Assembly (NCBI GenBank): GCA_030841035.1
Contig: JAVEDI010000020.1
Span: 1 to 35,753, forward strand
Direction of reading: 5' to 3'
Source of the DNA: Actinomycetota bacterium
GTDB taxonomy: Bacteria > Actinomycetota > Actinomycetes > JACCUZ01
DNA length: 35,753 bases
Shown here: positions 33,562 through 35,753 of the stretch, in pieces
Layout: each line of letters opens with the position of its first letter
Numbering within the stretch: position 1 is the stretch's first letter
Position numbers and translations under genes: made by a program
The notes under the pieces: model-generated
Database searches by the model: none
What the model was told of the DNA's origin: nothing
The model's input: the letters and a program-made list of their open reading frames with translations, nothing else

Positions 33562-34011
33562 TCAGCGGGCGTGGACGAGGACCGTCCCGGCGGCCCGGTC
33601 GTGCAGGCCGCGGCCGTCGCGGTCCCAGATCAGGGCCGGCACCAGCAGCAGAAGAAGCAGCGTCCGCAGCGCGGCGCGGGGCAGCCCCGCGGGGCGCCCG
33701 TCGAGGCGCACGACCGCCAGCCCGCGCACGGCCTGACCGGCCGAGGCGCCCAGGAACGCCGTCAGCACCAGCACCTCGATCCCGAACACCACCGTGGTCC
33801 ACGCCGTGTCGCGCCAGAACCCCCACGCGACCAGGGCGCACATGACGGTGTCGACGCCGAACGCCGCGAGCCGGGGCGCGAGACCGGCCACAGACCCGGG
33901 ACCCGACGCGGGACGGCCGAGGCGGGCTCCGGGGGCGTCGTCGTCGCCAGAGGCGCCGTATGCCGACCCGGGTCCTCCCAGCCAGCCGCCTAGGCTGCGT
34001 CTGTCCACCAC
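33562..34011 (-). CDS. RDD family membrane protein
   Basis: 149 aa from GTG 34011 (GTG 34008 is adjacent and equally possible). The N-terminal 40 residues are Gly/Pro-rich and unstructured. The RDD domain starts at GLAPRLAAFGVDTVMCALVAWGFW and contains TVVFGIEVLVLTAFLGASAGQAVRGLAVVRLDG and LLLLLLVPALIWDRDGRGLHDRAAGTVLV, giving about three membrane helices. The Arg-x-Asp signature that names the family is degenerate here (AFGVD). Function is unknown; transport has been suggested for some members. It diverges from glnA. Confidence 0.88.
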   Translation of the reverse strand: MVDRRSLGGWLGGPGSAYGASGDDDAPGARLGRPASGPGSVAGLAPRLAAFGVDTVMCALVAWGFWRDTAWTTVVFGIEVLVLTAFLGASAGQAVRGLAVVRLDGRPAGLPRAALRTLLLLLLVPALIWDRDGRGLHDRAAGTVLVHAR

Positions 34012-34017
34012 GTCCAG

Positions 34018-34023
34018 AGCCTA
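34018..34023 (-). promoter_or_regulatory. -10 element TAGGCT of the leaderless RDD gene
   Basis: On the minus strand TAGGCT is followed by 6 bases and GTG 34011. Confidence 0.45.
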
Positions 34024-34064
34024 GGCCAGGCCCTCGGACGCTTGTGTCCGACCGGCGCGGAGGC

Positions 34065-34102
34065 GTAACACGGTGGAAACAACCGGGTCACCGATGGGAA
34101 AC
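34065..34102 (+). promoter_or_regulatory. GlnR operator (two a/b site pairs) upstream of glnA
   Basis: GTAAC (34065-34069), 6 bases, GAAAC (34076-34080), 6 bases, GTCAC (34087-34091), 6 bases, GAAAC (34098-34102). This is an exact match, in sequence and spacing, to the GlnR consensus gTnAC-n6-GaAAC repeated twice, known from Streptomyces and mycobacterial nitrogen genes. The right pair covers the -35 region of the glnA promoter. Confidence 0.93.
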
Positions 34103-34112
34103 CGCGCACCCC

Positions 34113-34118
34113 TAGCGT
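34113..34118 (+). promoter_or_regulatory. -10 element TAGCGT of glnA
   Basis: TAGCGT lies 10 bases after the last GlnR half-site. No good -35 exists because its place is taken by GlnR half-sites, as expected of an activator-dependent promoter. The leader would be about 50 bases and includes the ribosome site GAGGAGG just before ATG 34176. Confidence 0.6.
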
Positions 34119-34175
34119 GCGTGGTCGAACGGTCAAGCACGGTGCGCGGCCTGCCCGCGCCCACGAGGAGGATGA

Positions 34176-35600
34176 ATGTTCAGCAACGCTGACGAGGTCC
34201 TGCGGTTCATCAAGGACGAGGACGTGAAGTTCGTCGACGTCCGATTCTGTGACCTCCCCGGGGTCATGCAGCACTTCAACGTGCCGGCGGAATCGGTCGA
34301 CGAGGACTTCTTCGTTGACGGCCAGATGTTCGACGGCTCCTCGATCCGGGGCTTCCAGGCCATCCACGAGTCGGACATGAAGCTGATCCCCGACCCGGCG
34401 ACGGCCTACCTCGACCCGTTCCGCACGGAGAAGACACTGGCGCTGAACTTCTCCATCGTCGACCCCTTCACCGACGAGCCCTACAGCCGTGACCCGCGCA
34501 ACATCGCGGCCAAGGCAGAGGCCTACCTGGCAGCGTCCGGCATCGCCGACACGGTCTACTTCGGTCCGGAGGCGGAGTTCTACGTCTTCGACGACGTGCG
34601 GTTCGAGACCAAGCAGAACGCCGGCTACTACTTCATCGACTCCATCGAGGGCGCCTGGAACTCCGGGCGGGTCGAGGAAGGCGGCAACCGCGGCTACAAG
34701 ACGCGCTACAAGGGGGGTTACTTCCCCGTGCCGCCGGTCGACCACTACGCCGACCTGCGGGACCGGATGAGCCTCGAGCTCAACGCCGCCGGCCTCGAGG
34801 TGGAGCGCGCGCACCACGAGGTGGGCACGGCAGGGCAGGCCGAGATCAACTACAAGTTCGACACCCTGCTGCACGCCGGCGACAAGCTGATGCTGTTCAA
34901 GTACATCATCAAGAACGTCGCCTGGGCCGCGGGCAAGACGGCGACGTTCATGCCCAAGCCGCTGTTCGGTGACAACGGCTCGGGCATGCACTGCCACCAG
35001 TCGCTGTGGAAGGACGGCACGCCGCTGTTCTACGACGAGTTGGGCTACGCCGGTCTCTCGGACATGGCCCGCCACTACATCGGCGGTCTGCTGCGTCACG
35101 CCCCGTCGCTGCTGGCCTTCACGAACCCGACCGTCAACAGCTACCACCGGCTGGTCCCCGGCTACGAGGCGCCGGTCAACCTGGTCTACTCGCAGCGCAA
35201 CCGCTCGGCCTGCATCCGCATCCCGATCACCGGCGCAAACCCGAAGGCCAAGCGCATCGAGTTCCGCGTTCCGGACCCGTCGTCCAACCCCTACCTGGCC
35301 TTCTCGGCGATGCTGATGGCCGGCATGGACGGCATCCGCAACAAGATCGAGCCGGAGCAGCCGGTCGACAAGGACCTCTACGAGCTGGCCCCCGACGAGC
35401 ACGCCGAGATCGCCCAGGTGCCCGCGTCCCTCGAGGCCGTGCTGGACTCGCTCGAGGAGGACCACGCCTACCTGCTGGAGGGCGGGGTGTTCACCCCCGA
35501 CCTGATAGAGACGTGGATCGACTGGAAGCGCACCAACGAGGTCGACCCGATCCGGCTGCGCCCCCACCCCCACGAGTTCGAGCTCTACTTCGACCTGTAA
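34176..35600 (+). CDS. glnA: Glutamine synthetase type I
   Basis: 474-aa GSI, forming glutamine from glutamate, ammonia and ATP; a dodecamer. The beta-grasp domain ends near [18 protein letters not shown]. Catalytic parts: [11 protein letters not shown] metal ligands, [17 protein letters not shown], the ATP/ammonia region [51 protein letters not shown] and [24 protein letters not shown]. The adenylylation Tyr is kept in [10 protein letters not shown] (about residue 400), so control by GlnE-type adenylylation is expected. Transcription is under GlnR by the operator at 34065-34102. It ends before a strong hairpin. This is the housekeeping GlnA1-type gene. Confidence 0.97.
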
Positions 35601-35641
35601 AGCAGACCGGGCCGCACCGGCCGGAGCACCGTCTGTGAGCC

Positions 35642-35668
35642 AGCCCGCCCGGTCGCGCCGGGCGGGCT
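35642..35668 (+). terminator. glnA terminator hairpin
   Basis: AGCCCGCCCGG (35642-35652) and CCGGGCGGGCT (35658-35668) form a perfect 11-bp stem with loop TCGCG, 41 bases after the glnA stop. It lacks a U-tract, as is common at this GC content. Confidence 0.85.
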
Positions 35669-35676
35669 ACTCGCTG

Positions 35677-35753
35677 ATGACCCGGAAGGATCATTGCCTC
35701 GGCCGGGGTGGCGCTTGCAATCTCTGCCTGTGGCAAGACTGCTGTGTCGAGTG
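35677..35753 (+). other. Window edge: possible start of a Cys-rich or lipoprotein gene
   Basis: Two open plus-strand readings reach the edge. From ATG 35677 a Cys-rich peptide starts MTRKDHCLGRGGACNLCL, followed by WQDCC. In another frame (35681 on) the reading ALAISACGK resembles a lipobox, but its only early start codons are ATC/ATT or GTG 35708. Too little is present to choose, and neither has a clear ribosome site. Confidence 0.2.

Follow-up and report, generated by a model that had tools for sequence, protein, structure and literature searches.

The DNA upstream of glnA in this actinobacterial genome raises the question of how transcription of the gene is initiated and what controls it. 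In the 35,753-nucleotide stretch analyzed here (the window), the open reading frame at 34176-35600 (+) encodes a type I glutamine synthetase (glutamate--ammonia ligase) of 474 residues (TIGR00653, 684.6 bits against a cut-off of 429.15). A run of four short repeats, GTAAC-n6-GAAAC-n6-GTCAC-n6-GAAAC, can be read directly 5' of the gene at 34065-34102 (+). We believe that the region is very probably a glnA promoter that lacks a -35 element and is activated by GlnR, a type of glnA promoter already known in actinobacteria.

The repeats alternate between two kinds of predicted GlnR half-site, all on the plus strand: an a-site, GTAAC (34065-34069), a b-site, GAAAC (34076-34080), a second a-site, GTCAC (34087-34091), and a second b-site, GAAAC (34098-34102). 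All four were read directly; the A at the fourth position of half-site 1, and the G and final C of half-site 2, are identical in all 78 relatives described below, and half-sites 3 and 4 are also supported by the relatives. A spacer of 10 nt (34103-34112) separates the operator from a putative -10 hexamer, TAGCGT (34113-34118), which conforms to TANNNT. The -10 is followed after 57 nt by the ATG at 34176, which is preceded by a presumed ribosome-binding site, AGGAGG (34166-34171). Transcription is presumed to start 7 nt 3' of the -10, at 34125 (+), which would put the centre of the operator at about -41.5. With spacers of 16-18 nt, a -35 would have to lie within 34089-34096; this place contains no -35-like hexamer and is overlapped by half-site 3. 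The coordinates, half-sites, 6-nt gaps and 10-nt distance to TAGCGT given in the original prediction are thus all exact, and its proposal that the right half of the operator stands in place of the -35 holds in that the second box overlaps that place and no -35 is detected.

An ordinary sigma-70 promoter for glnA was considered and rejected: a simple sigma-70 scan found no such promoter in 33600-35753, and there is no correctly spaced -35. Apart from TAGCGT, the interval 33991-34175 contains a single TANNNT, at 33991. A known RNA element was likewise rejected: across the whole window, every Rfam family stayed below its gathering score. An RDD-family reading frame (33562-34011, minus strand) diverges from glnA, and the operator, lying between the two, could affect that gene also.

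The arrangement was described as a complete match to the Streptomyces-type GlnR double site, and it does fit the S. coelicolor consensus, gTnAc-n6-GaAAc-n6-GtnAC-n6-GAAAc, as quoted in the review PMC10704036. The review also mentions that the glnA promoter of S. coelicolor has been footprinted. The likeness to the S. coelicolor double box (Tiffert et al. 2008, as cited there) extends to the a-b-a-b order of half-sites, the 6-nt gaps, the orientation, the position 5' of a type I glnA and the presence of the regulator. At many Streptomyces loci half-sites 1, 3 and 4 read TTAAC, GTCAT and GAAAT, whereas all four fit the consensus here.

A match of this kind arising by chance has a negligible probability. 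With up to 3 mismatches allowed, the four-half-site pattern matches once in the window and in none of 100 dinucleotide shuffles. The genome (3.95 Mb in 120 contigs, 99.76% complete) was scanned with the degenerate four-half-site consensus at a tolerance of 3 mismatches in 16 positions, with the reversed pattern as control. The scan returned 21 matches (17 forward, 4 reverse) against 11 (7 + 4) for the control; about half of the imperfect places are therefore expected by chance. Only at glnA is the match exact; three places have 2 mismatches and 17 have 3. Those with 2 mismatches are found 26 nt 5' of an ABC-transporter ATPase-like frame on contig C11, next to a GTPase TypA/BipA-like frame on C18 (both judged from the translations) and on C76. 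They were rejected as further GlnR sites, since none scores above 12 with the profile built from the glnA operators. What finally rules out a chance match is the conservation of the site, with fixed spacing, at related glnA loci (78 of 79).

These loci were found by scanning contigs with the present GlnA, and the best 80 of 583, all actinobacterial, were used; one with only 64 upstream bases was dropped, which left 79. Within 400 upstream bases, 78 of the 79 carry the operator with 0-4 of 16 mismatches (0, 1, 2, 3 and 4 mismatches in 1, 33, 22, 20 and 2 of these loci, respectively), while 4 or fewer mismatches occurred in 8 of 395 mononucleotide shuffles. The operators were placed without use of the -10. 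Nevertheless, in all 78 operators from these best 80 of 583 loci a TANNNT starts exactly 10 nt 3' of the last half-site, the intervening spacer being equal in length throughout, and the other offsets between 0 and 24 hold no TANNNT in any of the 78. When a -35 was sought at a spacing of 16-18 nt, with 4 or more of 6 matches required, 1 of 79 loci (window included) had one, against 9.6% expected by chance. The loci are related and were picked by GlnA similarity, and so are not independent events.

The distribution of operator and regulator was followed in 60 genomes, using a profile of 79 operators that included the window and the -10. Counting the present genome, the profile matches 51 of 60 at E <= 0.1; at the stricter limit of 1e-3 the number is 45 of 60. 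The N-terminal GlnR domain (Pfam GlnR_1st) matches 59 of 60 at E <= 0.001, 57 of them above the cut-off and 56 below 1e-30. The glnA regions of the 15 genomes with no profile match at 1e-3 were inspected. No GlnA at E <= 1e-150 was found in 7 of the 15, and the upstream DNA is missing in 2. In another four the operator is recognizable with TANNNT in register, as placed by the profile that contains the -10, with 1 mismatch in G010 and G023, 4 in G031 and 5 in G049. The last two, G043 and G057, have GlnR but a reduced glnA operator, in which the first box is retained and the whole arrangement is not (judged by eye for G057). The architecture is thus very common at glnA, but not universal.

The sole glnA without the operator among the 79 (from the best 80 of 583 loci) belongs to Janibacter corallicola NBRC 107790, where the glnA upstream region (L077, 1330-1500) fits the operator with 7 mismatches at best. 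In this genome GlnR_1st gives nothing above the cut-off (best E 4.7e-5), and the operator profile has no match at E <= 1 among the 150 of 441 candidates that were scored. J. indicus (L063), by contrast, carries GlnR (1.9e-44) as well as the operator (1.4e-12). The apparent absence of glnR in J. corallicola could possibly reflect a gap in the assembly; the loss of the operator was read directly. This single case suggests that loss of glnR accompanies loss of the operator. A further genome inspected for such joint loss, G048, has no glnA that could be found in its assembly.

The original prediction also required glnR to be present elsewhere in the genome, and it is. At E <= 0.001 the genome yields 16 matches to the family of the C-terminal DNA-binding domain (PF00486), of which 15 exceed the cut-off, and among the 16 is a 244-residue protein on contig C8. 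It combines the Pfam domain 'Transcription regulator GlnR, N-terminal domain' (GlnR_1st, 145.8 bits) with Trans_reg_C. Among PDB entries, it matches best with 8hih (298.8 bits, aligned over 228 residues) and 8hig (279.4 bits), which are labelled as transcriptional or OmpR-family regulators and nothing more specific. We take both to be structures of GlnR, 8hih presumably being the M. tuberculosis GlnR chain of the GlnR transcription activation complex (Shi et al. 2023). An entry that is labelled 'Transcription regulator GlnR', 4o1h, matches with 95.8 bits. No GlnR model is among the 25 NCBIfam families listed for the protein, all of which are under their cut-offs. Together, the two Pfam domains and the PDB matches establish that glnR is present. 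The operator profile has no match upstream of glnR itself.

Two other proteins related to GlnR are encoded on contig C16. One is a second full-length paralogue (L127:3797-4624, minus strand) with GlnR_1st and Trans_reg_C, 50% identical to GlnR; its neighbours are disA-like and radA-like frames, with no adjoining glutamine synthetase gene. In the other (L033:1003-1737, start codon uncertain), a rhodanese-like domain is fused to a winged-helix domain that shares about 49% identity with its counterpart in GlnR.

Additional targets of GlnR may exist in this genome. A check for further copies of the motif had been proposed, and the amtB promoter indeed carries one with equal spacing. The single amtB gene (PF00909) is followed by a P-II gene (glnK) and a GlnD-like gene (glnD), and is preceded by GTCAC-n6-GAAAC-n6-GCGTG-n6-GAAAC, 10 nt and TAGCGT, with an extra box, GTTAC-n6-GTAAC, upstream of the two boxes adjoining the -10. 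The site scores 19.0 with the profile, against 8.4 for the best score in three 8-Mb Markov sequences. The extra box recalls the three-box amtB promoter of S. coelicolor, as described in PMC5826061; unlike there, the third half-site here (GCGTG) is imperfect. On contig C91, a site scoring 18.4 (L126:1430-1483) carries an in-register TAGCGT; 8 nt further on comes the ATG of an operon for CP_ATPgrasp, Alpha-E and transglutaminase-like proteins, so that the transcript would be leaderless. We tentatively regard this operon as a candidate third GlnR target. In 17 of 22 corresponding loci that were scanned with the profile, the present one included, in-register partial sites lie just before the gene in G006 (10.8), G004 (0.8) and G021 (-3.7), the latter two below the best null score; scores in the remaining 13 do not exceed -6. 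No paper connecting GlnR with ATP-grasp, transglutaminase and nitrogen limitation came up in a literature search, a result that says little for or against this target. Contig C89 carries another glutamine synthetase gene, which was rejected as a full GlnR target, having a single GlnR-like box (GTAACCTGCCCGAAAC, L129:1223-1238; 18-24 nt before candidate start codons) and no profile match. A whole-genome profile search, in which 150 of 630 first-look candidates were scored, returned glnA at E 1.1e-11 and otherwise two weak places at 0.79 and 0.87; the amtB and C91 sites went unreported in it. A separate profile scan of this genome covered 44 loci.

How would GlnR act at the glnA promoter? Four GlnR DNA-binding domains are arranged head to tail in the activation complex (Shi et al. 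2023, as cited in the review PMC10704036). That complex, like the region here, involves a four-site promoter, and the GlnR encoded here shares with 8hih the 228-residue alignment noted above. By this scheme, GlnR would bind head to tail to four half-sites spaced 11 bp apart, occupy the place where sigma would contact the -35, and recruit RNA polymerase to the -10 starting 10 nt past the last half-site, so that glnA transcription would rise under nitrogen shortage. The proposed replacement of the -35 contacts draws on the anatomy described here and on what PMC10704036 says of the activation complex and of the S. coelicolor glnA footprint. We infer that GlnR binds at this site, that transcription starts near 34125, that activation prevails over repression and that nitrogen supply is the signal; any figure for the strength of the response would likewise be inferred. 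GlnR can also repress, as at ald of Amycolatopsis (PMC4140684). A similar design is seen in pho-box promoters, in which PhoB, an activator of the OmpR family, sits on direct repeats near the -10 and substitutes for the -35 (PMC4971064). Here too there is no -35, and the predicted activator site keeps a short, constant distance to the -10. The pho box differs in being 22 bp with two repeats, in contrast to the four half-sites at glnA, and in its regulator and signal.

The size of the response is where the original prediction went too far. It called for strong activation of glnA by GlnR, but response size is not readable from sequence, and published responses range from almost none to 20-fold. 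In these studies, glnA changes about 2-fold in S. coelicolor, from a double-box promoter (PMC5826061), by -1.2 in a glnR strain of S. venezuelae (PMC3087709), little or not at all in a glnR knockout of M. tuberculosis (PMC4950008) and 20-fold in M. smegmatis (PMC3662644). The weak responses in the two Streptomyces also lend weight to a somewhat unlikely but serious alternative, that GlnR does bind here while glnA is transcribed mainly from another or a constitutive start, the operator modulating transcription or switching the start site. M. tuberculosis provides a precedent: glnA1 has distal and proximal starts, with a GlnR site at -37 of the proximal one (PMC4950008), and changes little in the knockout, as just noted. 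Against such a second start stand the negative sigma-70 scan of 33600-35753 and the lone other TANNNT at 33991.

It is much less probable that an OmpR-family protein other than GlnR is the main reader of the boxes, whether alone or in competition with GlnR and possibly as a repressor. The candidates would be the L127 paralogue, in whose DNA-binding domain the run RTVDVHVRRLR is unchanged from GlnR, an MtrA-like protein encoded in this genome (L028, judged from its translation) or a PhoP-like protein. According to the review PMC10704036, Streptomyces nitrogen genes are subject to competition of GlnR with PhoP and MtrA, and at glnA itself the competitor is PhoP. Competition of this kind is, however, compatible with activation by GlnR. 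As to the paralogue, the present genome is the only one of the 60 searched with two GlnR_1st matches below 1e-30, while 58 of the 60 have exactly one or two matches, with no more than one of them strong. A paralogue that is a strong second match in one of these genomes only cannot be what maintains an operator present at 78 of 79 glnA loci.

Activation by GlnR from a -35-less promoter remains our preferred reading. Against it stand the repression by GlnR at ald, the weak response of glnA to GlnR in several species, the partial operator that G043 and G057 combine with GlnR, and the amtB site missing from the results of the whole-genome profile search; in addition, the second GlnR paralogue may share the site. 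A more far-reaching proposal, which we consider doubtful, is that glnA, lacking a -35 and with its operator always 10 nt from the -10, is tied so tightly to GlnR that glnR is lost together with the operator, as J. corallicola suggests, and that in addition the family regulon extends to the CP_ATPgrasp/Alpha-E/transglutaminase operon and the second GlnR paralogue reads the same boxes.

Nitrogen control of glutamine synthetase in this organism very probably follows the GlnR scheme. The promoter rule that emerges (four half-sites, 10 nt, TANNNT and no -35), for whose 10-nt distance we make no claim of novelty, predicts which genes would be activated by GlnR; in this genome, they would be amtB-glnK-glnD and the CP_ATPgrasp operon.
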